Shown: positions 40,288 through 59,028 of the stretch, piece by piece | How positions within the stretch are numbered: the stretch's first letter is position 1 | How the letters are laid out: each line of letters begins with the position of its first letter | Origin: Mycolicibacterium mucogenicum DSM 44124 | Lineage (GTDB): Bacteria > Actinomycetota > Actinomycetes > Mycobacteriales > Mycobacteriaceae | DNA: 64,000 bases | Assembly (NCBI RefSeq): GCF_005670685.2 | Contig: NZ_CP062008.1 | Span: 2,294,001 to 2,358,000 of the forward strand | Reading direction: 5' to 3' | The notes under the pieces: model-generated | The model's database searches: none | What the model was told of the DNA's origin: nothing | What the model saw: the letters and a program-made list of their open reading frames with translations, nothing else | Program-made: the position numbers and the translations under genes

Positions 40288-40315
40288 GTTTACAAAAAGC
40301 ACTGAAATTGTAAAT
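40288..40315. promoter_or_regulatory. operator A of the TTACA-N14-TGT family (kinase-like gene)
   Basis: TTTACA (40289-40294), 14 bp, TGTAAA (40309-40314): a perfect 6+6 palindrome, eight bases before the ATG of the kinase-like gene and between the two TetR genes. It is the most symmetrical member of the family besides site F. Confidence 0.72.
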
Positions 40316-40348
40316 GGGGACGAGGACCAACGGTGGGACCGGCTCGAT

Positions 40349-40876
40349 CTAACCCGGCCCGCGCACCCGTGCGGCGTAGCGCAGTTGCTCGAGGAATTGA
40401 TCTTCGTCGTCGCTGCGGACCAGGTAGTGCGACGCCGCGACGCGCACCACTGTGGCTGCGATCTCTGCCGAGTGCGGGCCGGGGATCAGCCGCTCGAGGC
40501 GCGCTCGCATCACCGGCAGCGCACTGCCCAGGCGGGCGATCACCTGCTCGGGTTCGATGTCGACCATCCGGAATCCCGGATATGACCGCTGGTAATCGAC
40601 GATGACGCGCAACGCCGCGTCGAGCCGGTCCTCCGGCGGCAGTCCGGCGATGGCCTTGGCCACGCCGCGCTCGTAGAAGCCGCGCTCCCACTCCACGAAT
40701 GCCGCCAGCAGTTCCTGTTTGGAGGCGAACCAGCGGTACAGCGTGGGGCGTGACACGCCGGCCTGGGCGGCGACCTCGGAGAGGCTGAGTTTGGTCATGC
40801 CCTGACGGCCGAGTACGGCGGCGGTGGCGACCAGGAGGCGCTCGCGCGTGGTATCGGTGTCGTCGGCGGCGGACAT
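40349..40876 (-). CDS. TetR family regulator (paralogue 2)
   Basis: A 175-aa TetR protein with its helix-turn-helix at about residues 12-58 (RERLLVATAAVLG, then TKLSLSEVAAQAGVSRPTLY). It is clearly paralogous to the TetR at 38603-39142 over the whole length. It is divergent from the P450 at 40960; operator B lies between them, eight bases before this gene's start. It is therefore the best candidate for the protein binding the TTACA-N14-TGT sites. The inducer is probably a substrate of the P450/BVMO pathway. Confidence 0.88.
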   Translation of the reverse strand: MSAADDTDTTRERLLVATAAVLGRQGMTKLSLSEVAAQAGVSRPTLYRWFASKQELLAAFVEWERGFYERGVAKAIAGLPPEDRLDAALRVIVDYQRSYPGFRMVDIEPEQVIARLGSALPVMRARLERLIPGPHSAEIAATVVRVAASHYLVRSDDEDQFLEQLRYAARVRGPG

Positions 40877-40883
40877 GTGACTA

Positions 40884-40913
40884 CTTTACAAAATTTACAT
40901 CAAGTGTCACGCT
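40884..40913. promoter_or_regulatory. operator B of the TTACA-N14-TGT family (tetR / P450)
   Basis: CTTTACA, then 14 bp, then TGTCACGCT. The same 30-bp pattern occurs at 42274-42303, 51237-51266 and 58908-58937. It lies in the divergent region between the second TetR gene and the P450, so it can control both. Confidence 0.75.
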
Positions 40914-40959
40914 GAGTCGGCTGCGTCGGGGTAGCCGACCGCAGTGGGAAGGAGCGCCG

Positions 40960-42216
40960 GTGAGCGTGGTCAGTGAGCCGCAGAAGCGCCCGTACAGCCC
41001 GCATGACATCACCTCGCACGCATTCTGGGAACAGCCTTTTGCCCAGCGCGACAAGACTTTTGCCGCATTGCGGGCGGCGGACGGGCTGACCTGGCACCGG
41101 CCGCTGCCGTCGCTGTTCCCCATGGAGGAGCCCGGTTTCTGGGCTGTCACCCGCCGCGCCGATATCGGCTACGTCAGTCAGCACCCCGAGCTGTTCACCT
41201 CGGTGCGGGGCGTCGCCCTGGACCCGATGCCCGCCGAGGTGCAGCGGTTCGCGTCGTTCTTCCTGACCATGGACCCACCCGAGCACACCAGATACCGCCG
41301 GCTCATCAGTTCGGCCTTCACGCCGCGCAATGTCCGGAGGATCGAGCAGCAGATCCACGACAACGCGGTGCGGGTGGTCGACGAGCTCGTCGGCGCCGGC
41401 GACGTCGACTTCGTGGCGGCCTGCTCGTCGCGGCTGCCGATGATGACGATCTCCGAGATGCTCGGGGTGGTGCCGTCCGAGCGTGAAGCGCTGGCCAAGG
41501 CCGCCGAGAAGCTGTTCAGCATGAGCGACGACGAGTACTCCTCATTGGAGGAACGTGCGGCGGACACCATCAACGAGATCATGCTGTTGTCCGGCACCGG
41601 GGTTGAGCTGGCCAAGTATCGCCGGGCCAACCCCGGCGACGATCTGATGACCGCCATGGTCGATGCCGAGGTCGATGGGCACCGCCTGACCGACGATGAG
41701 ATCGGTGCGTTCTTGATCCTGCTGGCATCGGCCGGTAACGACACGACCAAGCAGACCACGACACACGCGATGCTCGCGCTGCAGCAGCATCCCGACCAAT
41801 TGGCCTGGCTGTTGGAGGATTTCGAGTCCCGTATCGACATCGCCGTCGAGGAGTTCGTGCGGTGGTCCACACCTGTCCTGCAGTTCGCCCGCTTCGCCAC
41901 CCAGGACACCGAGTTGGCCGGGCAGCGCATCACCGCCGGCGACAAGGTGGGGCTGTTCTACTGCTCGGCAAACCGGGATGAGGCGGTGTTCGACGCGCCC
42001 GGCGCCTTCAACTTGCGCAGGACCCCCAACCCGCACTTCGGCTTCGGTGGCGGCGGCCCGCATTTTTGTCTCGGCAACCAGCTGGCCAAGGTCGAACTGC
42101 GAAACCTGTTCCGGGAGTTGCTGACTCGCCTCAAGCGTATCGAGCTCGGCGAGCCCGACCTGCTGTACAGCAGCTTCGTCCACGGCATCAAACACTTGCC
42201 GGCGTACGTGGCCTGA
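40960..42216 (+). CDS. cytochrome P450 (CYP124/125/142-like haem loop)
   Basis: A 418-aa P450. The haem loop is FGGGGPHFCLG with Cys ~370, the form found in the mycobacterial CYP124, CYP125 and CYP142 families that oxidise methyl-branched chains and sterol side chains. The I-helix carries ASAGNDTTKQ and the K-helix EEFVRW (ExxR). It starts with GTG. It stands alone, with operator B upstream, and probably draws electrons from the ferredoxin encoded just downstream. Family similarity suggests a terminal or branched-carbon hydroxylation, but the substrate is not known. Confidence 0.88.
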   Translation: MSVVSEPQKRPYSPHDITSHAFWEQPFAQRDKTFAALRAADGLTWHRPLPSLFPMEEPGFWAVTRRADIGYVSQHPELFTSVRGVALDPMPAEVQRFASFFLTMDPPEHTRYRRLISSAFTPRNVRRIEQQIHDNAVRVVDELVGAGDVDFVAACSSRLPMMTISEMLGVVPSEREALAKAAEKLFSMSDDEYSSLEERAADTINEIMLLSGTGVELAKYRRANPGDDLMTAMVDAEVDGHRLTDDEIGAFLILLASAGNDTTKQTTTHAMLALQQHPDQLAWLLEDFESRIDIAVEEFVRWSTPVLQFARFATQDTELAGQRITAGDKVGLFYCSANRDEAVFDAPGAFNLRRTPNPHFGFGGGGPHFCLGNQLAKVELRNLFRELLTRLKRIELGEPDLLYSSFVHGIKHLPAYVA

Positions 42217-42273: not shown

Positions 42274-42303
42274 CTTTACAAAAATGCTCAAAACTGTCAC
42301 TCT
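42274..42303. promoter_or_regulatory. operator C of the TTACA-N14-TGT family (ferredoxin operon)
   Basis: CTTTACA, 14 bp, TGTCACTCT, about 140 bp upstream of the ferredoxin start, within the 223-bp gap after the P450. The long distance implies a leader of more than 100 nt if this site marks the promoter. Nothing else was recognised in the gap. Confidence 0.7.
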
Positions 42304-42439: not shown

Positions 42440-42631
42440 ATGGAGATCGAAGTCAGCCTCGACAAATGCACCGGGCACGGAATCTGCGAATCCCTCGCCG
42501 ACGACGTCTTCGAGGTTCAAGACGACGGCAGCGTGCGGATCATCGGCGGATCGCGGCCGGAATCGGACCGGGACCGCATGCAACAGGCGGTGACGCAGTG
42601 CCCCGCTGCGGCGCTGCGACTCGTCGACTGA
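42440..42631 (+). CDS. 3Fe-4S ferredoxin
   Basis: A 63-aa ferredoxin of the type that partners actinobacterial P450s. The cluster motif is KCTGHGIC (Cys, then His in the place of the second Cys, then Cys), and the distal Cys is in TQCPAAAL, so a [3Fe-4S] or [4Fe-4S] cluster with an unusual His position is expected. The ATG at 42440 gives the normal family length. It lies 16 bp before a P450 gene and would carry electrons from a ferredoxin reductase encoded elsewhere. Confidence 0.9.
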   Translation: MEIEVSLDKCTGHGICESLADDVFEVQDDGSVRIIGGSRPESDRDRMQQAVTQCPAAALRLVD

Positions 42632-42647
42632 GCGACTGGAGGCCGCG

Positions 42648-43853
42648 ATGACCACGTCGAAATTGATCTTTGATCCGTTCTCCGAACGCCACTACAACGA
42701 CCCCTACGACACCTACAGGTTGTTGCGGGATGAGGCGCCCGTCTACTACAGCGATCAGTACGACTTCTACGCGCTGAGTCGCCACGCGGACGTCGCGCCG
42801 GCGTTCAAGGACTTCGCGACATACTCGTCGAGTCGGGGCGTGACGCTCGACGAAATCCACTCCGGCGAACACGGGCACGATCAATCCATCATCTGGATGG
42901 ATCCGCCGGCGCACCGCCGAATGCGCAGCCTGGTCAACAAGGTGTTCACACCGCGCGCGATCCAAGCTCAAGAGATCGTCGTTCGCGAGCGCATCGAATA
43001 CCACCTGTCCCGGTTGGACCGCACGAATTTCGATGTGGTGGCGCAGTTCTCGGCACTGTTCCCCGTCGAGGTCATCACCACGATGCTCGGGGTGCCCGAG
43101 GAGGATCGGCAGAAAGTCCGCGTTCTGCAGGACGTCGCGTTGCGGCGTCAGCCGGGGCAGATGCGCATGAGCCGCCGTGGTGCCGAGGCGATGGCCGAGA
43201 TCGGCCTCCTCTACTACAAGTTGATTCAGCAGCGCCGCGCCGATCCGCAGGACGACATGATCAGTGCCCTGATCGAAGTCGAGGTCGAGCGTGAAGACGG
43301 CACCCGCACTTCCCTCAACGACGTCGAGATAGCGGGCTTCTGCACCCTCCTGGGTGGCGCGGGGGCCGAGACCGTGGCCAAACTCGTCGGTACGGCGGCC
43401 GTCCTGTTCGGCCGCCATCCGGACCAATGGCAGCTACTGCAGGACAATTCGGGCCTCGTCCCGTCCGCCGTCGAAGAAGTCCTGCGCTACGAGGGACCCG
43501 TCCAATACGACTGCCGATTCACCATGACCGATGTGCACCTGCACGGCACCACGATTCCGCAGGGCCGCGCGGTGATGCTGCTCGGTGCGGCGGCCAACCG
43601 GGACGAGCGGGCATTCACCGATGCCGACGTGTTCGACATCAATCGGGACCGCACCGAGGCGCAGAACCTCGCCTTCGGATACGGCATTCACAGCTGTCTC
43701 GGTGCGGCGCTGGCGCGGATGGAGAGCAAGATCGCGCTGGAGTATCTGCTCGACCTCATGCCGGCGTTCGAGGTGCACGAGGAGGGCTTGAGCCGCGTCG
43801 CGATGACGAGCGTCAACGGCTACGAGAACGTGCCCCTGCGGGTCCGGCGATGA
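42648..43853 (+). CDS. cytochrome P450 coupled to the ferredoxin
   Basis: A 401-aa P450. The haem loop is FGYGIHSCLG with Cys ~350 and the ExxR is EEVLRY. The I-helix reads GGAGAETVAK: Glu replaces the more common Asp and Val replaces the second Thr, so proton delivery to the iron-oxygen species may differ. It is encoded between the ferredoxin and an SDR gene, all on one strand with small gaps, suggesting hydroxylation followed by oxidation of the alcohol. Confidence 0.88.
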   Translation: MTTSKLIFDPFSERHYNDPYDTYRLLRDEAPVYYSDQYDFYALSRHADVAPAFKDFATYSSSRGVTLDEIHSGEHGHDQSIIWMDPPAHRRMRSLVNKVFTPRAIQAQEIVVRERIEYHLSRLDRTNFDVVAQFSALFPVEVITTMLGVPEEDRQKVRVLQDVALRRQPGQMRMSRRGAEAMAEIGLLYYKLIQQRRADPQDDMISALIEVEVEREDGTRTSLNDVEIAGFCTLLGGAGAETVAKLVGTAAVLFGRHPDQWQLLQDNSGLVPSAVEEVLRYEGPVQYDCRFTMTDVHLHGTTIPQGRAVMLLGAAANRDERAFTDADVFDINRDRTEAQNLAFGYGIHSCLGAALARMESKIALEYLLDLMPAFEVHEEGLSRVAMTSVNGYENVPLRVRR

Positions 43854-43902: not shown

Positions 43903-44736
43903 ATGAACAACAATTCGGCATCGTTGGCAGACCGCACCATGGTGGTCTCCGGTGGCAGCCGGGGCATCGGCCTGGCCATCGGAATCGGGGCGGCCCGGCT
44001 CGGCGCCAACGTCGTGCTGCTGGCCAAGACCAGCGAGCCGCATCCGAAGTTGCCGGGAACGGTCCATACGGCCGTCGCGGAAGTGGAGGCTGCCAGCGGC
44101 AAGGGACTGGCCGTGGTGGGCGACGTCCGCAACGAGGCCGACGTGCAGCGTGCGGTCGACGCGGCGGTCGAGCGTTTCGGGGGCATCGACATCGTCGTCA
44201 ACAACGCCAGCGCCATCGCCACCGAACCAACCGAGACGCTGCCCGCCAAAAAATTCGACCTGATGATGGACATCAATGTCCGCGGCACTTTCCTGCTGAC
44301 GAAAGCCGCACTGCCGTACCTGCGGAAGTCGACGAACGCCCACGTTCTGACAGTGGCCCCGCCCCTCAACATGAACCCGTATTGGCTCGGCGCGCATCCG
44401 GCCTACACGGTGTCGAAATACGGAATGACGCTGCTGTCGCTGGGATGGGCCGCTGAATACTCAAGTGCGGGAATCGGATTCAGCTGTCTGTGGCCGGAGA
44501 CCTACATTGCGACCAGCGCGGTCGCCAACTCGGCGGATTTGGCGGACATGATGGCGCGCTCGCGCAGTCCCGAGATCATGGCCGATGCCGCGGTGGCCAT
44601 TCTGACCGGACCGGCGCGGGAAGCCAACGGCAAGTGCTATATCGACACCGACGTGCTGGCCGAACGCGGGGTCATAGACCTCTCGCGGTACGGCGGGGGC
44701 GCCGACCCCATCGTGGACATCTTCGTGGATCGCTGA
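43903..44736 (+). CDS. short-chain dehydrogenase, HSDL2-like, lacking the catalytic Ser
   Basis: A 277-aa SDR of the HSDL2 type. The cofactor motif is SGGSRGIGLAIG near residue 17, VVNNASAI follows near residue 105, and the active-site YTVSK is near residue 167. The segment that normally supplies the catalytic Ser (SPPLN in this family) reads VAPPLNMN, so Ser is replaced by Ala. It may be impaired as a dehydrogenase or use another proton donor. It follows the P450 by about 50 bp and probably belongs to the same operon. Confidence 0.82.
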   Translation: MNNNSASLADRTMVVSGGSRGIGLAIGIGAARLGANVVLLAKTSEPHPKLPGTVHTAVAEVEAASGKGLAVVGDVRNEADVQRAVDAAVERFGGIDIVVNNASAIATEPTETLPAKKFDLMMDINVRGTFLLTKAALPYLRKSTNAHVLTVAPPLNMNPYWLGAHPAYTVSKYGMTLLSLGWAAEYSSAGIGFSCLWPETYIATSAVANSADLADMMARSRSPEIMADAAVAILTGPAREANGKCYIDTDVLAERGVIDLSRYGGGADPIVDIFVDR

Positions 44737-44769: not shown

Positions 44770-46110
44770 CTACTCGACCGTTCCGTTGAGGCCGAGTTCG
44801 GCCAGCGCTTTGCGGGTGGATTCTTCCAGTGCCGCTTTGGTGTTCGTGTCGCCCGGTTCCCACGCGGTGACCGTGACGATCATCGACGTCGGTGTCTGGC
44901 ACAGCACCAGGAACAGGTGACCGTTCAGTCGCTCGAGGTCCACCGGGGTCAGTCCCGGCTCGACCAGGCGGGCGTGGAAATTGTCGGCGTCGGTCCCGTC
45001 GGGCCGGTTGAACGCCGGCGGGAACTGCCCGAGGTTGGAGCAACCGATCGGCTTGCCGACCTTGAGCACCATCTTCTCGAGCCGTCGCACCGCGAACTTG
45101 GGCACCAGGGGAGTCAGTGGCAGGGGCGTGAGCATCATCCGGGTCCACTCGTCGACACCGGCCAGTTCGCGCTTGACGTCGGCCCGCAACTCGGACAGGT
45201 CGGTGCTGACCTTCTCTGGGTCCGCCATCACGGTGATGGTGCTGAGCGCATTGCCCCGGGTGTCGCCCTCGGTGCGGATGTTGACCGGGAACGAGAGCAT
45301 CGCCCGGCCGTCGTCGCCCAACCGTCCCACCACCTGCCCGACCCGGGCGGCGAGCGCGGCGAACAGGACATTGCTGGTGCCGCCAAGGGCTTTCGCGCGC
45401 TGGTACCACTCGTCGATGTCGACATGCACGACGACGAACGGCGGCGTCACCGGCGTGGTGATCCCGCTGGACACCGGCGCGCTCACCGATTTGGCTGACG
45501 CCGCCAGGTCGCCCTTCTGGTCGCGGGCGATCTTGGCGGCGCCGACCACGGCCTTGAACCAACTGGGGACCGAGCGGACCGTCTGGCGGAGGTCTTCGCG
45601 CAGTGCCTCACGCCGGGTCCGGGCGCCGGCTATCGGGTAGCCGAGATCGCGCGGCGACCCGTTGACCGCGTCGGCGACGGCTTCGGCGATGGCCAGGCCG
45701 TCACCGACGGTGTGGGACACCACGAGAGACACGGCCGCGCCGCCGCCCTCGAGCTGTTGCACACCGAGGTGCCACGGCGGGCCGTGTTCCGGGTCGACCG
45801 GGAGGTAACCGCGTTCATTGACCCAGTCGTTCAGCTCGGAGACGGGCCGCGTTCCAGGGGAGACGTCGAGGTCCACCGGTCCGGTGGAGCGGACCCACCG
45901 GTGGCGGCCGAACGGCAGCGGCGACCGTTCGATCCGGCGGCCCAGCAGGCCGCCGCTACCCAGATTGCGGTGCAGCCGGCGCAGGCCCTCGATGTCGACG
46001 GGGTGTTCGTAGATCCAGGTGTACTGGATGAGCGGGCCGCGACCCAGCGCCCGTAAGCCGGTGAAGGAGGCTTGATCTCCCAGGTCGATCGTGTTGTCGG
46101 CTACGGTCAT
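44770..46110 (-). CDS. WS/DGAT-like O-acyltransferase (condensation-fold)
   Basis: A 446-aa protein of the wax ester synthase/diacylglycerol acyltransferase family, which condenses acyl-CoA with an alcohol or diacylglycerol. The HHxxxDG motif appears as SHTVGDG near residue 135: the catalytic second His and the Asp-Gly are kept, and the first His is Ser. The C-terminal SNLGQFP and PTSMIVTVTAWEPGD segments fit the family. It is a single gene, convergent with the SDR. Activity is plausible but the divergent motif leaves the reaction open. Confidence 0.8.
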   Translation of the reverse strand: MTVADNTIDLGDQASFTGLRALGRGPLIQYTWIYEHPVDIEGLRRLHRNLGSGGLLGRRIERSPLPFGRHRWVRSTGPVDLDVSPGTRPVSELNDWVNERGYLPVDPEHGPPWHLGVQQLEGGGAAVSLVVSHTVGDGLAIAEAVADAVNGSPRDLGYPIAGARTRREALREDLRQTVRSVPSWFKAVVGAAKIARDQKGDLAASAKSVSAPVSSGITTPVTPPFVVVHVDIDEWYQRAKALGGTSNVLFAALAARVGQVVGRLGDDGRAMLSFPVNIRTEGDTRGNALSTITVMADPEKVSTDLSELRADVKRELAGVDEWTRMMLTPLPLTPLVPKFAVRRLEKMVLKVGKPIGCSNLGQFPPAFNRPDGTDADNFHARLVEPGLTPVDLERLNGHLFLVLCQTPTSMIVTVTAWEPGDTNTKAALEESTRKALAELGLNGTVE

Positions 46111-46213
46111 GTCGCGAATGTTACCCAGCCCACAATATTTCGCTGCGCGAGCCTGTGAGTTGTCTGGGGGAGGCTCATCCTGTGAATCGGTCGGGTGTGC
46201 CGGACGCGCTACT

Positions 46214-46239: not shown

Positions 46240-46257
46240 CAATTAGGGGTGCGGCAC

Positions 46258-49543: not shown

Positions 49544-50365
49544 TCAGGTCGTTCTGGGCGGACGCGGCCGCACCAGAACCGACTGCTGGATGTGTGCGAC
49601 GGAGCCTGCCTCGTCGAACAGGGTGCCCACGGTAGCGGCGATGCCGTCCGGCCCGTAGTTGGTGTCCGACCGGATGCCGATCCAGTCGCCGTCGGGGACA
49701 CGGTGGATGTGCACCACCAAATCGGTGTTCAGGAACGTGAACCTGCGAATGTCGATCTTGGAACCGATGCCGTTGGCATTGTCGGCCACCGCGAACAGCC
49801 GCTGCAGCGGCGTCATCGATTCACCCTTGACCAGGTCGACCGTCGGGCGCAGCCAGGATTCGCCGGGGCCGGCGGCCTGCGGCACGGTCAGCCAGCGCCA
49901 GTCCACGCTGTGCACATAGTTGGGTTCCCAGTTCTTCGCCATGTCCCGGCTGCGGGCCTGCTGCAGCGGCGGCAGTGGCACCGCCGTGGCTTTCGCGATG
50001 GCCGTGGTATCGATCTGCAGCATGCGCCAACCGCTGGCCCGCGCGACGGCCCGGGTCGCGCCGTCCGGGCCCGGGGCCAGCATCTCGGCGCTGACCAATT
50101 CGATCTGTCGGCCGGGTCGCTCCACGTGTGCACGCACCCAGAGATCGCCGTCGGACGGCACGCCACCCATCAGGTCGATCGAGACGCGGCTGAGCCGGGT
50201 GTCGTCGCGGCGTTCGCAGTTCTCGAGGGCCCGGACCAGTAGGGCCGACGCCGGTGCCGCGTGCTGGATATCGGCGGACCAGGTGCCCCGCACCAGGTCC
50301 GTGGCCCTGAACCTGTCACCGTCGGGTCCGCAGGCGTCCAGCAATTCGTAATAGCAGTCAGACAT
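49544..50365 (-). CDS. acyl-CoA thioesterase family protein (double hotdog)
   Basis: A 273-aa double-hotdog protein related to the acyl-CoA thioesterases (TesB-like). The second domain carries MTPLQRLFAVADNANGIGS and RFTFLNTDLVVHIHRVP, typical of the actinobacterial members. It is the second gene of a two-gene minus-strand unit behind the SMP-30 lactonase, so it may be controlled by operator D. It could release or salvage a CoA-linked intermediate of the BVMO pathway. Confidence 0.78.
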   Translation of the reverse strand: MSDCYYELLDACGPDGDRFRATDLVRGTWSADIQHAAPASALLVRALENCERRDDTRLSRVSIDLMGGVPSDGDLWVRAHVERPGRQIELVSAEMLAPGPDGATRAVARASGWRMLQIDTTAIAKATAVPLPPLQQARSRDMAKNWEPNYVHSVDWRWLTVPQAAGPGESWLRPTVDLVKGESMTPLQRLFAVADNANGIGSKIDIRRFTFLNTDLVVHIHRVPDGDWIGIRSDTNYGPDGIAATVGTLFDEAGSVAHIQQSVLVRPRPPRTT

Positions 50366-50374: not shown

Positions 50375-51226
50375 TCAGTGGTGGTGGCCGAAGTCGCCGG
50401 GGGCTGGCACGCTGACCGTCAGCGCCGCGACGGTGGACAGCTTGGTGCCGATCATCCGATCGGGGTAGGCGTCGTGTGTGGTGACCAGGAACAAGGTCTT
50501 GCCCTCGGGGCCACCGAGGGCGCACGCGATGGCCATGCGGTCACCGACGTGGACCCGGTCGGTGACCGCTCCGCCATCTTCGATGCGCTCGAATTGGTGT
50601 GCCAGGGTCATGGCCGCCCACACGCCGCCGTCGGCGTCGATGGCGATGCCGTCCGGCGGGCCGTCGAGATGGTCGGCGAAGACTCGCCGACCGGAAAGAT
50701 CGCCGTCGGTATCGATGGTGAACGCGCTCAGCCGACGGCCGGTGGATTCGGCGACGATCAGCGTCCCGCCGTCGGGGGAGATAGCCATGCCGTTCGGGAA
50801 GTCGAGATCGCCGGCAACCACGCGGACGGAGCCGTCGAGGTCTACCCGCGCGATCACCCCGTTGCCGCGGGCCTGCGCGCCGACGTAGGCGCGACCCACC
50901 CGGTCGACGACGAGGTCGCCGAGGTCGGCCGGAACCAGATCGCTCAGGTCCGCCAGCAATTCCACGCTGTCGCCGTCGTAGTGCAGGATCTGCCGCGCGG
51001 CAATGGAGACGATGAGCAGCGCGCCGTCGGGCCGAAAACCCAAGCCGGACGGGCGATGTCCGGGCAACGGGAGGGTCGTGCCGTCGCCGGCCAGGTTCAC
51101 CGTGTGCACCGCCTCGCCGAGCATGTCGGAGAACCAGAGCAGGCCTTCGAACCAGCGGGGTCCTTCGCCGAAGCAGAAGCCGTCCGCGAGAGCAGTCGTC
51201 ATGGTGGGTTCAGCTTCGACCGTCAC
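50375..51226 (-). CDS. SMP-30/gluconolactonase family lactonase
   Basis: A 283-aa six-bladed beta-propeller of the SMP-30/gluconolaconase/LRE family. Metal-binding landmarks are the early Glu (FCFGEGPRWFEG), the Asn in DLDFPNGMAISPDG and the Asp in PPDGIAIDADGGVW. These enzymes open lactones. The GTG at 51226 has AAAGG nine bases upstream; ATG 51202 is the alternative. It is divergent from the BVMO operon across operator D, so it is a good candidate for hydrolysing the lactone that a Baeyer-Villiger enzyme would form. Confidence 0.85.
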   Translation of the reverse strand: MTVEAEPTMTTALADGFCFGEGPRWFEGLLWFSDMLGEAVHTVNLAGDGTTLPLPGHRPSGLGFRPDGALLIVSIAARQILHYDGDSVELLADLSDLVPADLGDLVVDRVGRAYVGAQARGNGVIARVDLDGSVRVVAGDLDFPNGMAISPDGGTLIVAESTGRRLSAFTIDTDGDLSGRRVFADHLDGPPDGIAIDADGGVWAAMTLAHQFERIEDGGAVTDRVHVGDRMAIACALGGPEGKTLFLVTTHDAYPDRMIGTKLSTVAALTVSVPAPGDFGHHH

Positions 51227-51236: not shown

Positions 51237-51266
51237 CTTTACAAAACACGCCTAAAGTGTCACGCT
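51237..51266. promoter_or_regulatory. operator D of the TTACA-N14-TGT family (lactonase / BVMO operon)
   Basis: CTTTACA, 14 bp, TGTCACGCT in the 75-bp divergent gap, 36 bp before the first gene of the BVMO operon and 11 bp from the lactonase start. It can control both directions. Confidence 0.75.
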
Positions 51267-51301: not shown

Positions 51302-52030
51302 ATGAAGAAGTTCCACGGCCACACCCTGTTGTACCTGCACGAGACCATCGACTTCGGGAGCGGACGCGACAACGGCTCCGGTCCGGGCACGATCGACGCC
51401 TTCCTGGAGGTCTTCGGTGACATCTATCAGCCGATGATGGAAGAGCTCGGGGCCAGGTTGTTCGCGATCTGGGAGACCACGCGGTACAACGGGCACTGGC
51501 CGCAGGCCACGATCATCTGGGAGATCGACACGTTCGCCGACTACGCCCGGGTCGGCCGGGCGCAGGGCCGTGGTGGGAGCCACGAGGCGCCGGCTCTGCG
51601 GTGGGCCTCGGCCCTGGCCGGACTGAATGCTCGCGGTGAGGGCCGAATCATGTACGCGGGCAAGTACAACCGGACGCTGGCGCAACTGACGGAAGCCGAC
51701 TTCGGAGCCGGGCTGGTGATCCAGGAGATCATGGAAACCAAACCCGGTAAGCAGGACGACTACATCCGCGAACTGGAGCGGCTTTACGTGCCGTGGTCGG
51801 AGTCGACCGGCAAGCGCTGGCTCGGCTCGTTCATCACCACCTTCCGGTTCAACGAAGTGATCCACTACTGGGCGCTCGACGGGGGCTGGGACTGCTTCGA
51901 GAACCACTACCCGTCGTGGAAGGGCGACCCGCCGGCCGAGATCGTCACCTGGATGAGCGTGGCTCCCGCGCTACGCGACGGTTGGGAAGATTCCGTTCTG
52001 TCCGCCCTGCCGCCGTCACCGCTCAAATGA
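51302..52030 (+). CDS. NIPSNAP-like dimeric alpha/beta-barrel protein
   Basis: A 242-aa protein with two similar halves (opening HGHTLLYLHETIDF and AGLVIQEIMETKPGKQDDYI), each with the beta-alpha-beta pattern of the NIPSNAP/dimeric alpha-beta barrel superfamily. Small proteins of this fold are common in degradation operons as isomerases, lyases or accessory factors. The enzymatic role here is unknown. It is the first gene of the BVMO operon and overlaps the P450 by ATGA. Confidence 0.6.
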   Translation: MKKFHGHTLLYLHETIDFGSGRDNGSGPGTIDAFLEVFGDIYQPMMEELGARLFAIWETTRYNGHWPQATIIWEIDTFADYARVGRAQGRGGSHEAPALRWASALAGLNARGEGRIMYAGKYNRTLAQLTEADFGAGLVIQEIMETKPGKQDDYIRELERLYVPWSESTGKRWLGSFITTFRFNEVIHYWALDGGWDCFENHYPSWKGDPPAEIVTWMSVAPALRDGWEDSVLSALPPSPLK

Positions 52031-53274
52031 TCCGGAACCATCCGATGAAAAACACTGTGATGCAAGACTTCTCGTACGATCCGTTCGACCCCGCCGTGAT
52101 GGCCGACCCGCGGCCGTATTACCGGGTGCTGCGTGATCGGTATCCGGTCTATTTCGTCGAGGCATGGGATACCTACGCGCTGTCGCGGTTCGAAGACATC
52201 TGGCGCGTCCTGGAGGTGAACGACGGCACGTTCGTCGCATCCGAGGGCACCCTCCCCGCTGCGAATGTGCTTGCCGTACACAACGCCGGTGCGGTACCGG
52301 ACCCGGCCCTGCACCCGATGCCGTTCCACGCCAACTTCGATTCCCCGATCTACGAGGACGTCCGTCGCTGTACCGCGGCACAATTCCGGCCCAAGTCGGT
52401 CGGCCGGCTCGCCGACCGGATCCGCGTGCTGGCCAACGAACGACTGGACGTGCTGCTGCCACAGGGCACCTTCGACCTGACGCAAGACTACGGCGGCATC
52501 GTCGCGGCTTCGGTCGTGTGTGAACTACTGGGACTACCAACAGAATTGGCGTCCGAGGTGCTCGCCACGGTCAACGCCGGCAGCCTGGCCGAGCCGGGGA
52601 GCGGCGTCGAGGTCGGCAACGCCCGGCCGGGCTACCTGGAGTATCTGACGCCGTTGGTCAGCGGTCGACGGTCCGGATCGGGTCAGGGCGATCTGCAGAT
52701 CGTCGATGCGCTGCTGGGTTACCGGTTGCCCGACGGCTCCGAACTCACCGATACCGAAGCCGCAGTCCAGCTGCTGGGCGTGTTCATCGGCGGCACCGAG
52801 ACCGTCCCCAAGATCGTCGCGCACGGACTGTGGGAACTACTGAGGCATCCCGACCAGATGACGGCCGTGCGTGGCGATCTCGCGGCCCACGTGCCCGTGG
52901 CGCGTGAGGAGATGATCCGGTACTGCGCACCCGCACAATGGTTCGCGCGAACCGTACGGCGCCCGTTCACCATTCACGACACCACCGTAGAACCGGGGCA
53001 GCGGATCATCACCTTGCTCGGGTCCGCGAGCCGAGACGAACGCGAATACCCGGACCCCGAGACATTCATCTGGAACCGGCCGATCGAGCGTCTGCTGGCA
53101 TTCGGCCGGGGACAGCACTTCTGCCTCGGTGTCCATCTGGCCCGCCTGGAGATCACCATCCTGGTGACCGAGTGGCTGAAACGGGTGGGGGAGTACGACA
53201 TCGACACCAACGGTGCGTCGCGGCCGCCGTCGAGCTTCCAGTGGGGCTGGAACCGCGTCCCGGTGGAGGTGTGA
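52027..53274 (+). CDS. cytochrome P450 of the BVMO operon
   Basis: A 415-aa P450. The haem loop is FGRGQHFCLG with Cys ~366 and the ExxR is REEMIRY. The I-helix is FIGGTETVPK, again with Glu in place of Asp and no second Thr, as in the P450 at 42648. The start at ATG 52027 overlaps the upstream stop (ATGA); ATG 52045 is the alternative. Position in the operon suggests it introduces the first hydroxyl, which the next gene (an alcohol dehydrogenase) would oxidise. Confidence 0.87.
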   Translation: MIRNHPMKNTVMQDFSYDPFDPAVMADPRPYYRVLRDRYPVYFVEAWDTYALSRFEDIWRVLEVNDGTFVASEGTLPAANVLAVHNAGAVPDPALHPMPFHANFDSPIYEDVRRCTAAQFRPKSVGRLADRIRVLANERLDVLLPQGTFDLTQDYGGIVAASVVCELLGLPTELASEVLATVNAGSLAEPGSGVEVGNARPGYLEYLTPLVSGRRSGSGQGDLQIVDALLGYRLPDGSELTDTEAAVQLLGVFIGGTETVPKIVAHGLWELLRHPDQMTAVRGDLAAHVPVAREEMIRYCAPAQWFARTVRRPFTIHDTTVEPGQRIITLLGSASRDEREYPDPETFIWNRPIERLLAFGRGQHFCLGVHLARLEITILVTEWLKRVGEYDIDTNGASRPPSSFQWGWNRVPVEV

Positions 53275-53276
53275 GC

Positions 53277-54245
53277 ATGTGGTGCTACCGACTGGTCGCG
53301 CCGTACACCTTCGAGCGCATCGACATTCCCCGGCCGACCGCCGAAGTGTTGACCGACGGTCAGGTGTTGTTGAAGTTCGGCGCCGCGGGCATCTGCGGCA
53401 GCGACATTCCCGGATTCCGCGGCACCAAGGGCAAACTGCCGGGCGACACCGGTCCCTGCGCCGCCGAGATGAACGGCTTCCCGGTACACGAGATCGCGGG
53501 CGAGGTGTTGGCCAGCAGACACCCGGGCCACCGGATCGGGGACCTCGTGGTCGGCTGGGCATCCGGGTTCGACGGGCTGATGGACACGGTAGTGGCCGAC
53601 GGAAACGGTTTGGCCGCATACGATCCGGCGCTGACACCCGAACTCGCCGTCGGGCTGCAGCCGCTGGCCTGCGTGCTGTACACCGTGGAGCAGTTGCCGG
53701 ACCTCACGGGCAAGCGGGTCGCCGTGATCGGCCTCGGGTCGATCGGCCTCTTGTTCGCGTATCTGGCGAAGGCAGCCGGGGCCGGGCATGTCACTGGTGT
53801 CGACCCGGTGGACCGTTCGGCCGTCGCGCCGGCGTTCGGGGTCGACACCGTGGTGCGGGCGACCAGTGACCGGTGGATCAGTCATCTCGATCCCGGCGAC
53901 AAGGCGGATGTGGTGATCGAGGCGGTGGGGCATCAGGTCGCGACGCTCAACCACGCACTCGACGCGGCGGCCTTCGGCGGCACCGTCTTCTACTTCGGCG
54001 TGCCCGATGACGACAGCTACCCGATCAGTATGCGGACCCTGCTGCGCAACAACCTGACACTGAAATCCGGTGTGACACTGGATCGTCGGCGGGTGTTGAC
54101 GGCAGCCGGCCAGTTTGCGCGCGCGCATCCGGAGCTGCTGCCGCGATATCTGACCCACACCTTCATCGCGGATCAGGTGCAGGAGGCGTTCGAACTGGCT
54201 GCCCGGCCCAGCCCGGGTCGCGTGAAGATCGCGATCACCGCATGA
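53277..54245 (+). CDS. zinc-type alcohol dehydrogenase (MDR), compact form
   Basis: A 322-aa medium-chain dehydrogenase. The catalytic zinc site is recognisable in AGICGSDIPG (Cys ~37) and FPVHEIAGEV (His-Glu ~67-68). The Rossmann motif VIGLGSIGLLFAY is near residue 147. The four-Cys lobe of the structural zinc is missing, so the enzyme is shorter than a typical ADH. An in-frame extension lies within the P450 gene; GGAGGTG before ATG 53277 fixes the start. It would oxidise the alcohol made by the P450. Confidence 0.85.
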   Translation: MWCYRLVAPYTFERIDIPRPTAEVLTDGQVLLKFGAAGICGSDIPGFRGTKGKLPGDTGPCAAEMNGFPVHEIAGEVLASRHPGHRIGDLVVGWASGFDGLMDTVVADGNGLAAYDPALTPELAVGLQPLACVLYTVEQLPDLTGKRVAVIGLGSIGLLFAYLAKAAGAGHVTGVDPVDRSAVAPAFGVDTVVRATSDRWISHLDPGDKADVVIEAVGHQVATLNHALDAAAFGGTVFYFGVPDDDSYPISMRTLLRNNLTLKSGVTLDRRRVLTAAGQFARAHPELLPRYLTHTFIADQVQEAFELAARPSPGRVKIAITA

Positions 54246-55030
54246 CATCACGACTGCAGGACCTGCTGGCCGCCAAAGACCGGATCTGGGGCGGCTGGGT
54301 GACCGGCCCGACCATCCTGGGCCCGGAGGAATTCGCCGCGGCGGGATACGACTACGTCGGGTTCGACCTGCAACACGGCTATCTGGACGATGCCGCTGTC
54401 GCCCTCATCCTGCGCCGCCTCGAACACGTGCCGATCGCGACGGCGGTGCGGTTGCCATCGGCGGATCCGGCCCCGATCGGCCGGGTGCTGGACGCCGGAG
54501 CGGATGCCGTCATCATCGCGATGGTGGAATCCGCCGAGCAGGCGGCCGCAGCGGTCGCCGCGGCCCGCTTTGCGCCGGAGGGGATTCGCAGCTTCGGACC
54601 GCTACGGGCCTCGCTGGGCCATGACATCGGCGCCCTGCAGGATCGGGTCGGCGTTTTCCCGATGGTCGAAACGGTGGCGGGCGCCGCGGCGCTGCCGGAG
54701 ATCCTTGCCGTGCCCGGAATCGCGGGGGTGTATGTCGGACCTGCCGATCTTGCGGTGTCGATGGGCCGAACCGTCGCGGATTCGTGGCGGGATCCCGCGG
54801 TGCTGGAACAGATGAGCGGCATCTGCGCGGTCACCACCGCCGCCGGTCTGGTGGCCGCTGCGCACGCGGGTGCGGGCCTGGTGGGTCATACCGCCGCCGG
54901 CCTCGGGTTCCGAATGTTGACCCTGGCGTCCGAATCCCAGGCATTGCGGCGGGGTGCGGCCGAAAACCTCAGGGAGGCAACGGGTGCGGCGCCGGACACC
55001 GGCAGCCGGCAGACGGGAGGCTACCGATGA
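54242..55030 (+). CDS. HpcH/HpaI family aldolase
   Basis: A 262-aa class II aldolase of the HpcH/HpaI (2,4-dihydroxyhept-2-ene-1,7-dioate aldolase/citrate lyase beta) family. The active-site Arg-region is in TAVRLPSADP near residue 63, the metal-binding Glu is in PMVETVAGA near residue 142 and the metal Asp in GPADLAVSMG near residue 168. It cleaves hydroxy-oxo acids to pyruvate and an aldehyde, which would suit a late pathway step. It overlaps both neighbours by ATGA. Confidence 0.85.
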   Translation: MTSRLQDLLAAKDRIWGGWVTGPTILGPEEFAAAGYDYVGFDLQHGYLDDAAVALILRRLEHVPIATAVRLPSADPAPIGRVLDAGADAVIIAMVESAEQAAAAVAAARFAPEGIRSFGPLRASLGHDIGALQDRVGVFPMVETVAGAAALPEILAVPGIAGVYVGPADLAVSMGRTVADSWRDPAVLEQMSGICAVTTAAGLVAAAHAGAGLVGHTAAGLGFRMLTLASESQALRRGAAENLREATGAAPDTGSRQTGGYR

Positions 55031-55758
55031 CCACCACAGCACAGCCGGTGGCACTGGTCACCGGCGCTGCCCGTGGCCAAGGTGCCGCCATCGTCGCTCG
55101 ATTGCGCCGGGACGGATTCCAGATCGCGGCGTGTGACGTGTTGGTCGATGAACTTGCCGTGGTGGCCGGCGACGACGCCGGTGTCCTGCCGATCGGGCTC
55201 GACGTCACGTCGGCAGATCAATGGCACGCCGCCGTGGACCAGATCGTCGACCGTTTCGGTGGGCTCAACGCTCTGGTCAACAACGCCGGTGTGCTGCACC
55301 GTGCGTCGCTGAGCAAGGAGGGCGCAGCGGGCTTCGAAGACAGCTGGCGGGTCAACTGCCTCGGCCCGTTCCTGGGCATCCAAGCGTGCCTGGAGCCGCT
55401 GCGGGCGGCCGACGGTGCGGCCGTCGTGAACACCTGCAGCACCGGCGCGGTGCGGCCGTTCCCGGGCCATGCCGCATACGGATCGTCCAAGTGGGCGCTG
55501 CGTGGGTTGACCCAGGTTGCGGCGGCCGAGCTGGCCCCGTCGGGTATTCGGGTCAATGCCGTGTTCCCGGGACCGGTGCAGACCCCGATGCTCGACGATG
55601 TCACGCAGGCCCGGTTGGCCGAACGGTCCCCGCTCGGCCGTCTGGGGCGGCCGGGTGAGATCGCCGATGCGGTCGCATTTCTCGTCTCCGACCAGGCCTC
55701 GTTCATCACCGGTGCCGAGCTGGTGGTGGATGGTGGCCAATGCCTGCAGATCGGATGA
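55027..55758 (+). CDS. SDR family oxidoreductase
   Basis: A 243-aa classical short-chain dehydrogenase. TGAARGQGAAIV (residues ~13-24) binds NAD(P), NNAG is near residue 90, and the catalytic set is complete: Ser in NTCSTGAV (~139) and YGSSK (~151-155). The family C-terminus FITGAELVVDGGQ is intact. It is coupled by ATGA to both the aldolase and the BVMO genes. It probably oxidises a cyclic alcohol to the ketone used by the BVMO, alongside or after the zinc dehydrogenase. Confidence 0.88.
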   Translation: MTTTAQPVALVTGAARGQGAAIVARLRRDGFQIAACDVLVDELAVVAGDDAGVLPIGLDVTSADQWHAAVDQIVDRFGGLNALVNNAGVLHRASLSKEGAAGFEDSWRVNCLGPFLGIQACLEPLRAADGAAVVNTCSTGAVRPFPGHAAYGSSKWALRGLTQVAAAELAPSGIRVNAVFPGPVQTPMLDDVTQARLAERSPLGRLGRPGEIADAVAFLVSDQASFITGAELVVDGGQCLQIG

Positions 55759-57224
55759 CGGCGGTGACTCGTGACCTGTCGGTCGGCATCATCGGCGCCG
55801 GCCCCGGCGGACTGGCGCTCGGAATCTTCCTGAAGAAAGCCGGCTTTCGTGACTTCACCATTTTCGACCGGGAGGACGGTGTCGGCGGCACCTGGCGCAT
55901 CAACACCTACCCGGGGCTGGCCTGTGATGTGAAGTCGCATCTCTACTCGTACTCATTCGACCTCAACCCGGACTGGTCCCGGATGTGGTCCGGCCAGGCA
56001 GAGATTCTGGCGTACTTCGAAAACTGTGCTGAACGTTACGAATTGGGACCGCATTTACGACTGGGCACCGAGATCGCGGCAGCGCGGTGGGATGCCGAGA
56101 CCGGCGACTGGGAACTGACCACCGCGACGGGGGAACGGCATCGCTTCGATGTCGTGGTGTCTGCCATCGGCTTGTTCACCCGGCCGGTGCTGCCTGAATT
56201 GTCCGAGGAAGAACCGTTCCTCGGCACGGTCATGCATACCGCGCGGTGGGATCCCTCGGTACCCATCGACGGCCGCCGGGTCGCCGTCCTCGGAACGGGA
56301 TCGACTGCCGCGCAGCTGCTTCCGGAGCTGGCCAAGACCGCCGAACACGTCTATTCGATCCAGCGTTCGCCGACGTGGATTCTGCCGAAACCGGACCGGC
56401 CCTACACCGACCGCGAACGCTGGCTGTTCCGGCGCGTGCCGTTGGCGAAGAAGATCTACCGCACCCGCCTGTGGCTGCGCAGCGAGTCGAACATCGCGGT
56501 GATCGAGAACGGCAGCGACAAGACCCAGCAGTTCAAGGCGGTTGCGGTCAACATGTTGGAGTCCACGGTCGCGGACCGAGAACTGCGGCGCCGGCTGACC
56601 CCGGATACCCCGCTGGGCTGCAAGAGGCTGGTGTTCTCGTCGGATTTCCTTCCCGCGCTGACCCGTTCGAACGTCGACGTGGTGTCCAGCCCGGCCCGGG
56701 CACTGCGGTCGCGGTCACTGGTCACCGCCGAAGGAGACGAATTCGAGGTCGACGTCGTCGTGTGCGCCACGGGGTATGCAGCGGCCGACTATTTGGGGCA
56801 GATCGAGGTGACCGGAGAAGGTGGCCGGCCGCTGAGCGAGCGATGGCGCGACGGTGCGCACGCCTATCTCGGCATGGCCGTGCCCGGCTTCCCGAACTTC
56901 TTCATGCTGTACGGGCCCAATACCAACGTCGGGTCGAACAGCGTCATCTTCATGCTGGAAGCGCAGGCGCACTACGTGGTGCGTGCGCTGAAATATCTGC
57001 GGCGCAAGCGGAAGCGGTACATCGCGGTGCGGGAGCCGGTGATGCAGGACTTCCTGGCCAAGGTCGACCGGTGGATGGTCGGCACGGTGTGGACGACACG
57101 GTGCAACAACTACTTCCGGGTGGCAGGTGGACGTGTGGTGACGCAATGGCCGCGCAGCGCCCGGACGTTCTGGGCGATGACTCGTCGATTCCGCCCGGCC
57201 GACTACGATTTCGGGGACCGGTAG
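55755..57224 (+). CDS. Baeyer-Villiger flavin monooxygenase
   Basis: A 489-aa class B flavoprotein monooxygenase. Two Rossmann motifs are seen: GAGPGG at ~14-19 for FAD and LGTGSTA at ~179-185 for NADPH. The BVMO fingerprint FxGxxxHxxxW is exact (FLGTVMHTARW, ~155-165). The GGTW segment is at ~44-47. BVMOs insert oxygen beside a carbonyl and turn ketones into esters or lactones. It is followed one base later by an esterase gene, the same pairing and size as MymA-LipR in M. tuberculosis. Confidence 0.9.
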   Translation: MTAVTRDLSVGIIGAGPGGLALGIFLKKAGFRDFTIFDREDGVGGTWRINTYPGLACDVKSHLYSYSFDLNPDWSRMWSGQAEILAYFENCAERYELGPHLRLGTEIAAARWDAETGDWELTTATGERHRFDVVVSAIGLFTRPVLPELSEEEPFLGTVMHTARWDPSVPIDGRRVAVLGTGSTAAQLLPELAKTAEHVYSIQRSPTWILPKPDRPYTDRERWLFRRVPLAKKIYRTRLWLRSESNIAVIENGSDKTQQFKAVAVNMLESTVADRELRRRLTPDTPLGCKRLVFSSDFLPALTRSNVDVVSSPARALRSRSLVTAEGDEFEVDVVVCATGYAAADYLGQIEVTGEGGRPLSERWRDGAHAYLGMAVPGFPNFFMLYGPNTNVGSNSVIFMLEAQAHYVVRALKYLRRKRKRYIAVREPVMQDFLAKVDRWMVGTVWTTRCNNYFRVAGGRVVTQWPRSARTFWAMTRRFRPADYDFGDR

Positions 57225-58148
57225 GTGTCCATCGAACGCCGGTTGGATCCCGCGCTGCGGCACCTGGTTGGCGCGCGGATCGACCTGGCAGCGGAAACCC
57301 TTGTCCAGCTACGTGAATCTCTTGATAGCCGGCGGCGTCTCGCTGCCGCCGCGGTCGATGTCACGGGCGTCGACGTCGCCGATGCCCAGGTTGCGGCAGC
57401 CGGGCGGGTGATTCCGGTTCGGATATACCGGGCCGGCGGCCGGGCTGTCCCCGCGGTGCTCTTCTGCCATTCCGGTGGCTTTGTGCTGGGCAACCTGGAC
57501 ACCGATCACCGCTGGTGTCTGGAACTGGCCAGGGCCGTCGGCTGCGCGGTGGTTTCGGTGGACTACCGCCTGGCTCCCGAACACCCCTATCCGGCCGCGT
57601 TCGATGACGTCGCGGCGGTGCTCGAGTGGATTGCGGACCATGCCGCGGCGCTGGACGTGGATGCACAGCGGATTGCGGTGGCGGGCAACAGCGCCGGCGG
57701 TGGGTTGGCCGCGTTGGTGGCCCAGGCGTCGGCTGTGGGGGCGTTGCCGCCGGTGGTCTTCCAGCTGCTGCATCAGCCGGTGCTCGATGACCGGCCGACA
57801 CCGTCGAAGGCCGATTTCTCGACTACGCCCGGATTCGACGGTCCGGCGGTCGAACTGATGTGGCAGCACTACCTGGCCGGTGCGCCGGTGCCGGCGGGGG
57901 CAGTACCCGGGCGGACGGCCGAATTGGCCGGTGTGCCAACGGCTCTGATCACCTGCGCGGAACTGGACCCACTGCGCGATGAAGCCGTCGACTACGCGCT
58001 GCGGCTCATGTGGGCCGGTGTCACCACGGAACTGCATGTGTATCCGGGCACGTGCCACGGGTTTGAGTCATTCCTGCCGGACTGGCAGACCAGCCGGGAC
58101 CTGTTGGCGCTGCACGCCGGTGCATTGCGGCGCGCCCTGTGCCGCTAG
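57225..58148 (+). CDS. alpha/beta hydrolase, hormone-sensitive-lipase family
   Basis: A 307-aa esterase of the HSL group. The oxyanion motif is CHSGGFVLG (usual form HGGG; here Ser replaces the first Gly) near residue 85, the nucleophile is in AGNSAGGGLA (~153), and the acid and His are expected in CAELDPLRDE and TCHGFESF. It starts with GTG directly after the BVMO stop. It is the last gene of the operon and is likely to hydrolyse the ester or lactone formed by the BVMO. Length equals that of LipR in the M. tuberculosis mymA operon. Confidence 0.88.
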   Translation: MSIERRLDPALRHLVGARIDLAAETLVQLRESLDSRRRLAAAAVDVTGVDVADAQVAAAGRVIPVRIYRAGGRAVPAVLFCHSGGFVLGNLDTDHRWCLELARAVGCAVVSVDYRLAPEHPYPAAFDDVAAVLEWIADHAAALDVDAQRIAVAGNSAGGGLAALVAQASAVGALPPVVFQLLHQPVLDDRPTPSKADFSTTPGFDGPAVELMWQHYLAGAPVPAGAVPGRTAELAGVPTALITCAELDPLRDEAVDYALRLMWAGVTTELHVYPGTCHGFESFLPDWQTSRDLLALHAGALRRALCR

Positions 58149-58161
58149 GGCGGGTGCCGTG

Positions 58162-58647
58162 CTATCGGCCCGGCCGCTGAGTAGCGCCGAGTTCCCGTGC
58201 GATGGCGTCGTGATAGCGATCGATGTTGGCCGGGTTGACAATTCGAAAGAAGTTGTCCGGCATGGGGGAATCTCTCGGGGCTTCGACGGTCATGGTGCGG
58301 GTGAACAGCGTCAGGCCCTCCGTCGGCTGGCTGAACCGGTACTCGACCGTGATGCGCCCGGCCATGCCGCCTTCGCCGGAGCGGTCGTGCCCGAGCCGGC
58401 CGACGGAGGTGAACATCCACAGCGTCGGTCGATAGGCCATGGCGAGGTGCCAGGTGAAGATGCGGTCGCCGTCCGGTCCGCCTTCTTCCCAGGTGTCACC
58501 GACCTTCAGGGGCAGGTCGTGCAGGTTGCCGACGTACTTGCTGCCGGGATAGGTCTTGGTCCAGTTGGCCGGGTCGGTCACGAAGTCATAGATGGTTTCT
58601 GCCCGGTGCTGAAACGTGTTCTGTGAGCTGGTGGTAACGACACCCAT
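58162..58647 (-). CDS. SRPBCC (START-like) family protein
   Basis: A 161-aa protein of the SRPBCC superfamily (polyketide cyclase/dehydrase-like), small helix-grip proteins that bind hydrophobic ligands. The opening NTFQHRAETIYDFVTDPANWTKTYPGSKYV and the later RITVEYRFSQPTEGLTLFTRTM fit this fold. The ATG at 58647 is immediately followed upstream by operator F. It ends 13 bp from the esterase gene, convergent. It may bind or transform a hydrophobic substrate of the pathway. Confidence 0.8.
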   Translation of the reverse strand: MGVVTTSSQNTFQHRAETIYDFVTDPANWTKTYPGSKYVGNLHDLPLKVGDTWEEGGPDGDRIFTWHLAMAYRPTLWMFTSVGRLGHDRSGEGGMAGRITVEYRFSQPTEGLTLFTRTMTVEAPRDSPMPDNFFRIVNPANIDRYHDAIARELGATQRPGR

Positions 58648-58648
58648 G

Positions 58649-58676
58649 CATTACAGATTAACTCACAAATGTAATG
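58649..58676. promoter_or_regulatory. operator F of the TTACA-N14-TGT family (SRPBCC gene)
   Basis: CATTACA, 14 bp, TGTAATG: a perfect 7+7 palindrome starting one base upstream of the SRPBCC start codon. The 14-bp spacer is the same as in sites A-E, and its GATT...CACAAA resembles that of site E. Confidence 0.72.
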
Positions 58677-59028
58677 GCCGACGGGAAATTTCAGATCTCT
58701 GAAGGCGAATGCCGGTGGCGCTGCCGGCGGCGGGCGCGTGGCCTGCGCCGTGTCTGATACTCGCTCAAACCGGCTGCATGTCAACAAGATTCCGGTACTT
58801 CGGCCATCGTTTGTGTGGCGGTGGGGGATGGTTGTGGGGTCGGGCTCGAATGTGGGATGGGGCGTGGTCGAGGGGCGGGCGCTGTTTCAGTGCAGGCAAA
58901 ATTCGATCTTTACAGATTTGCGCAAAAGTGTCACGCTGTGTTGAGGGATGCGTCACACCATCGGGATGTCACCCGAGGTCTCACGCCCGCACCACGGCCC
59001 AGCAACCGCATTCGGAGGAAGTGACACG
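58677..59028. other. 352-bp intergenic region with operator E
   Basis: No convincing gene was found here: the short open frames have odd composition (Gly/Trp/Arg-rich) and no ribosome-binding site. The region holds operator E at 58908-58937, about 90 bp before the orphan gene at 59029, so most of it upstream of that site is unexplained. The G/T-rich stretch 58815-58880 stands out from the rest. Confidence 0.6.
58908..58937. promoter_or_regulatory. operator E of the TTACA-N14-TGT family (orphan gene)
   Basis: CTTTACA, 14 bp, TGTCACGCT, with the same 30-bp layout as sites B and D. It precedes the 196-aa orphan gene by about 90 bp. Confidence 0.73.

Follow-up and report, generated by a model that had tools for sequence, protein, structure and literature searches.

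What controls the oxidative genes of an 18.6-kb block in the genome of Mycolicibacterium mucogenicum DSM 44124? The block lies in a stretch of 64,000 nucleotides (contig NZ_CP062008.1, positions 2,294,001 to 2,358,000; hereafter the window, to which coordinates refer unless stated otherwise), and is marked by six copies, A to F, of the inverted repeat TTACA-N14-TGTMA, the right half of which reads TGTAA or TGTCA. The TetR regulon that the original prediction, made from the letters of the window, saw in these repeats is strongly supported by sequence comparison: motif and TetR genes co-occur across genomes, the sites recur at orthologous promoters, and all hits of an independent profile are clustered in the block. 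Sites A to F are quite probably the operators of two local TetR-family repressors, TetR1 and TetR2, laid over the promoters of the units that these would control. TetR-repressor regulons are a familiar kind; in this one the operator is well resolved, and its overlap with promoters is unusual and can be read from the sequence. The sites are the following.

Site A, 40289..40314 (core 40290-40313), no strand: palindromic arms; upstream of the EcKL (ecdysteroid kinase-like) kinase and TetR2 genes (minus strand).
Site B, 40884..40913 (core 40886-40909), plus strand: asymmetric; between TetR1 (minus) and P450a (plus); found at the same place in relatives.
Site C, 42274..42303 (core 42276-42299), plus strand: asymmetric; upstream of the genes for a ferredoxin-like protein, P450b and SDR1.
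Site D, 51237..51266 (core 51239-51262), plus strand: asymmetric; between the genes for an SMP-30/gluconolactonase-type lactonase (SGL, minus) and a NIPSNAP-like protein (plus); found at the same place in relatives.
Site E, 58908..58937 (core 58910-58933), plus strand: asymmetric; upstream of the orphan gene at 59029 (plus).
Site F, 58649..58676 (core 58651-58674), no strand: palindromic arms; directly upstream of an SRPBCC gene (minus).

All six had been predicted at these positions and were found there letter for letter, TTACA and TGTAA or TGTCA being separated by exactly 14 bp, and each adjoins the promoter region of a unit of the block, also as proposed. Sites A and F, described as perfect palindromes, are palindromic in their 7-bp arms and not through the centre. 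Sites B to E, described as near-identical over 30 bp, share the arms (CTTTACA, TGTCAC) and not the inner 14 bp. The prediction that the window holds no further copies was borne out by a scan of the 64 kb, which returned A to F only; 0.022 copies per window are expected from base composition. In the whole genome (6,099,273 bp) the pattern yields 9 strand hits at 7 places, and the reversed control pattern 7 strand hits. As the count is near background, the signal is the clustering: six of the seven places fall within the 18.6-kb block, for which the chance is about 6e-15 (binomial).

A sequence-only profile was built from 50 non-redundant sites of 33 named mycobacterial loci, near-duplicates being dropped and no window site used. 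Run against the whole genome, it gives exactly six matches at E<=10, and these are D (2.7e-4), E (4.0e-4), B (1.3e-3), C (9.6e-3), A (0.55) and F (1.3). A genome scan of the kind suggested together with the original prediction, here with a profile from other species, recovers A to F alone, although A and F score weakly as individuals and are convincing only by their place. With up to 2 mismatches the genome holds 161 strand hits, below the 232 of the control, and no further sites are claimed in it.

Sites, conservation and the link to TetR are established by comparison. The genus sample includes 148 genomes, the own genome among them, and TetR1 homologues were called at E<=1e-30. TTTACA-N14-TGTMA makes 782 strand hits in these genomes, the reversed control 81, a palindromic site being countable on both strands. 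Of the 148 genomes, 123 encode a TetR homologue and 124 contain the motif. At least three strand hits occur in 112 of the 123 TetR-positive and in none of the 25 TetR-negative genomes, five of which were identified by subtraction (p 4e-20), so that the scan of related genomes also envisaged at the outset favours the regulon; any hit at all is found in 120/123 and in 4/25 (G308, G377, G380, G419), respectively. In a family-wide sample of 301 genomes (TetR threshold E<=1e-20), at least one hit was found in 36 of 38 TetR-positive genomes versus 50 of the 263 others (p 2e-20). Sixteen of these 50, all of genus g4, share one recurrent sequence. It reads TTTACAWCAC-N8-TCTGTMA (L010-L025), marks TetR-less genomes of this single genus, and swells the TetR-negative count. 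Gene linkage can account for part of the co-occurrence of motif and TetR.

All 33 named loci keep at least one site, and together contain 116 places in 605 kb, where 0.23 are expected and the reversed control finds 0. Most are at orthologous promoters (P450a/TetR1, EcKL, SGL/NIPSNAP), and one is next to TetR2, where the open reading frame in locus L063 encodes an aldehyde dehydrogenase. Eleven stretches around TetR genes were taken from outside the genus or from site-less genomes, and 9 have a site. In the six most distant loci, L100-L105, which belong to other genera and encode TetR proteins 45-57% identical, half-sites reside at the TetR's own promoter in all; in the five g23 loci (L100-L104) they lie between TetR and a facing P450b-like gene.

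The two regulator genes have the coordinates given in the original prediction.

TetR1, 40349..40876, minus strand: 175 aa; proposed repressor, predicted to be autoregulated through site B.
TetR2, 38603..39142, minus strand: 179 aa; second gene after site A.

The proteins are 59% identical and have the same recognition helix, and should therefore read the same half-site TTACA/TGTMA. Both match PF00440 (54 and 51 bits; cut-off 24). The predicted structure of TetR1 has nine helices (pLDDT 84.7, pTM 0.74), and a fold search with the TetR model matches FasR, EthR2 and KstR, in keeping with a TetR_N helix-turn-helix followed by an all-helical ligand domain. In a tree of 97 TetR rows (90 different), TetR1 falls in a clade of 33 (support 100/99) and TetR2 in another of 39 (96/88). 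Twelve genus genomes have a single TetR match in the family-wide sample; 11 are in the tree (G187 was left out), none of them in the TetR1 clade. The motif RPTLYR is present in the recognition helix of 94 of the 97 rows, the other three being misparsed by the search expression. The inverted repeat is found at the TetR's putative own promoter as at the putative target promoters, and both regulators are under the motif, since TetR2 follows EcKL behind A and TetR1 lies behind B.

The operator is long. Its core measures 24 bp and the half-site centres are 19 bp apart, so the inverted repeat exceeds 15 bp. The asymmetric sites were aligned in 92 rows (82 unique sites, the four of the window included), and the information in the unique sites is concentrated in AGCTTTACAAA and AAGTGTCACGCT; EcKL-adjacent sites have palindromic arms. 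The operator of g23 genomes is extended, that of L102 for instance having four half-sites, TTACA-N4-TTACA-N5-TGTAA-N4-TGTAA, and in L105 (g11) an inner TGTAA lies 10 bp from the outer TTACA. The recognition helices of a TetR dimer are 31-38 A apart according to PMC4150764. With 19 bp from one half-site centre to the next, each site would probably take two dimers, a reading in line with the four half-sites of L102.

Operator and promoter appear to be superimposed. The base scored is the T that would end a -10 hexamer, 17 bp from TTTACA and beyond the TGTMA half; counts refer to unique sides. This T is kept on 51 of 52 sides facing P450a (17/17), the NIPSNAP-like gene (17/17) or TetR1 (17/18), and also on those facing P450b-like genes (6/6) and the orphan gene (1/1). 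Sides facing only the 3' end of TetR2 have it in 1 case out of 21. The window has CACGCT on the right of B, D and E, CACTCT on the right of C, and AAACTT on the left of A. Of the 28 palindromic places in relatives, 17 have TGTAAACTTG-N4-ATG, in agreement with a TAAACT -10 element and a leaderless message at EcKL. That the operator covers the probable polymerase site argues for repression.

Several observations weigh against TetR operators laid over promoters. The pattern was originally drawn from the window in which its clustering is seen, and sites that are orthologous cannot be counted as independent. No site at all is found in three TetR-positive genomes of the genus sample (G157, G354, G360) and one of the family sample (G260), and the stretches fetched around TetR from G157 and G260 (L109, L110; 2 of the 11) are likewise without one. 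The T is found on just 8 of 20 SGL-facing and 16 of 24 EcKL-facing unique sides, and 75 sides (60 unique, 31 of these with T) are unclassed. The window hexamers facing TetR1 (AAAGTA) and the SRPBCC gene (AATGCA) also lack the T, and CACGCT, though -10-like, lacks the usual first T. Given the SGL count, the lactonase gene probably has another promoter. At window positions 51262-51300 the sequence CTGTCAAC occurs, as it does after 22 of the 23 NIPSNAP-facing sites of relatives (the exception is L091); its opposite strand contains TTGACA, which could be a candidate -35 element of the lactonase gene.

The promoter-like bases raise the question of whether the motif is a bare promoter class, such as an alternative sigma factor site (TTTACA, 17 bp, CACGCT), and no repressor operator at all. 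The asymmetric sites B to E are indeed all oriented towards their gene, with CACGCT or CACTCT retained outside the repeat. Inverted-repeat symmetry, palindromic EcKL sites, half-sites doubled in another genus and the close linkage with TetR do not suit a promoter, and the sides facing only the 3' end of TetR2 keep TGTCA, yet have GCT in 0 of 21 unique sides. The repeat must be kept there for something other than transcription, and a bare promoter seems very improbable. Promoters of the ECF41 type read TGTCACA-N16-CGTC; when B to E were checked by eye, CGTC was seen near that spacing in E only, and this candidate was dropped. Nor is it at all likely that the sites belong to another regulator, such as the ArsR-type protein encoded at 46195-46635 or one encoded elsewhere, with the TetRs merely linked. 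Physical linkage alone could produce co-occurrence, but among 25 loci with matches to the acyl-CoA thioesterase (TesB) and P450a the ArsR gene was found in just one, L061, and in the five g23 loci the half-sites lie between TetR and the P450b-like gene, where otherwise only P450/SDR matches of 28-36% identity are nearby.

Two adjacent paralogues, and two site classes with fixed places, might suggest that obligate TetR1-TetR2 heterodimers read the asymmetric sites B to E, and homodimers the palindromic A and F. Genomes with a single TetR match (E<=1e-20), e.g. G085 and G136, nevertheless have both TGTAA and TGTCA hits, the TGTAA ones away from TetR, and in L086 and L088 a palindromic EcKL site occurs together with TetR2, no TetR1 being within reach. 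Heterodimers are thus not needed; proteins with identical recognition helices should moreover not tell the halves apart, and the idea is hardly more credible than the two above. A further scheme, which we hold to be rather unlikely though clearly less so than these, has mixed pairs of dimers of both TetRs on every operator. Two signals, such as the substrate and a CoA intermediate from further down the route, would be needed for full derepression. The operator itself would be a pair of promoters facing each other symmetrically, every half-site being the -35 element for one strand and the -10 element for the other. If true, bidirectional promoters superimposed in this way would form a gate that opens on two signals.

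The reading preferred here, repression by the local TetRs through A to F, leads to the following mechanism, in which binding, repression, paired dimers, inducer and operon extents are inferred. TetR1 and TetR2, having the same recognition helix, would both read TTACA/TGTMA. The TTTACA half would provide a -35-like element and, at a distance of 17 bp, TGTMA plus the bases after it a -10-like one; where two units diverge, this would often hold for both strands. A repressor sitting on the site, probably in the form of two dimers, would block RNA polymerase until an inducing compound released it. All units would then be derepressed in one step: EcKL kinase and TetR2 from A, TetR1 and P450a from B, ferredoxin, P450b and SDR from C, lactonase and thioesterase leftward from D, NIPSNAP, P450, alcohol dehydrogenase, aldolase, SDR, Baeyer-Villiger monooxygenase and esterase rightward from D, the SRPBCC protein from F, and the orphan protein from E. 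Both TetR regulators would be under feedback. The genes under the sites, with operon extents predicted from spacing and strand, are listed below.

39168..40283, minus: EcKL/APH-type kinase; predicted to be near-leaderless behind site A.
40960..42216, plus: P450a; closest solved relative CYP268A2, 421 bits.
42440..42631, plus: ferredoxin-like protein, 63 aa; label from cysteine pattern and context, no NCBIfam match.
42648..43853, plus: P450b; closest solved relative CYP130.
43903..44736, plus: SDR1 oxidoreductase; PRK08278 subfamily.
49544..50365, minus: acyl-CoA thioesterase (TesB-like); after SGL.
50375..51226, minus: SMP-30/gluconolactonase-type lactonase (SGL).
51302..52030, plus: putative NIPSNAP-like protein, the family search giving no match; first gene of the D operon.
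52027..53274, plus: P450c; family match on the longer reading frame 51793-53274.
53271..54245, plus: zinc-type alcohol dehydrogenase; family match on the longer reading frame 52938-54245.
54242..55030, plus: HpaI-type aldolase.
55027..55758, plus: SDR2 oxidoreductase.
55740..57224, plus: type I Baeyer-Villiger monooxygenase; fingerprint FLGTVMHTARW at residue 160.
57225..58148, plus: LipP1/HSL-type esterase.
58162..58647, minus: SRPBCC protein behind site F; polyketide_cyc2-like, below cut-off.
59029..59619, plus: orphan protein, 196 aa, behind site E; no Pfam domain in any of the 17 relatives listed (window protein included).

Positions 44770-49526, inside the block, are devoid of sites and encode a WS/DGAT-like protein, the ArsR regulator, a SulP transporter, an OdhI-like FHA protein and a DUF1275 protein. 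In the 25 loci with TesB and P450a matches, all five genes are present in L061, two in L062, and none in the other 23.

Three P450s, a ferredoxin-like protein, a type I Baeyer-Villiger monooxygenase, a lactonase, an esterase and an aldolase make up a set from which a route can be predicted: hydroxylation, ketone formation, Baeyer-Villiger cleavage, opening of the ester or lactone, aldol cleavage, and entry into CoA metabolism. Oxidative breakdown of a cyclic or branched compound, as originally suggested, fits this gene set; that this compound is hydrophobic and terpenoid-like is plausible and no more, and it may enter the cell as a plant glycoside. Locus L063 of M. wolinskyi has further genes, for a CoA-transferase (opposite EcKL), an aldehyde dehydrogenase (beside TetR2) and a GH3 glycosidase (following TetR1). 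The first two are under sites there and absent from the window, which has only short gaps at the corresponding places (40315-40348 and 38599-38602). Remote site copies of other species, in six hand-picked stretches (L111-L116), reside by genes for enoyl-CoA hydratase, AMP-dependent (acyl-CoA) ligase, aldehyde dehydrogenase and thiolase, as by a DUF222 gene and genes for APH/EcKL kinases, nitroreductase, alpha/beta hydrolase and metal-dependent hydrolase; a further stretch, L117, is part of a main cluster. These neighbours are suggestive of CoA-based breakdown, and are not counted as support.

Motif and TetR together mark an oxidative catabolic route across the genus, the substrate of which is not named in the literature searched. 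The same switch and the same repressor family genus-wide make the missing substrate findable: reporters built on the six defined promoters allow it to be sought directly, as the repressor should respond to the inducer. Since the presence of the -10-like bases varies with the gene that faces them, the sites also form a natural series for operator-promoter overlap.

How does the regulon compare with known ones? KstR, also a TetR repressor, controls oxidative lipid catabolism that involves P450s, and its operator TAGAAC-N2-GTTCTA is unlike the present motif. The window TetRs score 28.8 and 25.7 bits with the KstR model, against an NCBIfam equivalog cut-off of 280, which excludes KstR, as had been expected. 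No KstR2 model was among the matches of the family search that covered KstR, a search not aimed at KstR2. In a cluster of the same genome that we take, from gene order, to be the cyp51 cluster, the TetR has the recognition helix APATAYTYF; its promoter bears the repeat GGACA-N2-TGTCC twice, and in the surrounding 18 kb TTACA-N14-TGTMA is absent within one mismatch. The pair of repeats (L148:12857-13670; own genome C1, ~518.9-519.7 kb) lies between that TetR gene and a divergent aldehyde dehydrogenase gene, and is likely a form of the Rv0767c-type operator. Helix and repeats both differ from those of the window, and an Rv0767c-type system was rejected on comparison with this TetR, not with the letters of the published motif X. 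As described in PMC6593523, motif X is a palindrome found on 14 operons of Mycobacterium sp. VKM Ac-1817D and ascribed to the Rv0767c orthologue; 12 of the 14 operons are up >3-fold on phytosterol. Like the present regulon, it is a predicted TetR-family regulon of a mycobacterium and includes P450s, alcohol and aldehyde dehydrogenases, and SDRs.

Mce3R, described as controlling genes for lipid-related metabolism, is the best sequence match among solved structures (9b7y, 40 bits, residues 9-61 only). According to PMC11667970 it has two TetR units in one polypeptide and binds a non-palindromic 27-bp region. Such a polypeptide of ~400 aa is at variance with separate proteins of 175 and 179 aa and inverted repeats, and this architecture rules out the Mce3R system, as foreseen. 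QacR and CprB resemble the window system in having operators >15 bp, bound by two dimers (PMC4150764) where here two dimers are deduced from spacing; CprB is not closely akin (28.9 bits over residues 8-90), and QacR is absent from the sequence matches among solved structures. For 30 TetR genes of M. tuberculosis, PMC4482099 gives motif logos. Rv1255c/cyp130 is a further candidate for comparison, P450b being nearest to CYP130. The regulon had been called undescribed, and no description was found in the open-licence PMC papers searched, subscription papers being mostly outside the search.

The closest parallel is Rv0078 (EthR2) of M. tuberculosis, a TetR repressor solved as two dimers on one 21-bp operator that overlaps the starts of two divergent genes; the crystal DNA, as given in PMC6016246, starts with TTTACA and ends with GGTAAC. 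In contrast to the window system, Rv0078 serves one divergent pair rather than six units, its half-sites are closer together by our reading of its 23-mer, and the sequence relation is weak (24 bits). Its DNA complex, 6c31, ranks third in the fold search with the window TetR, and both systems have an operator >15 bp, which at Rv0078 takes two dimers per site and lies over divergent starts, as predicted for the window.

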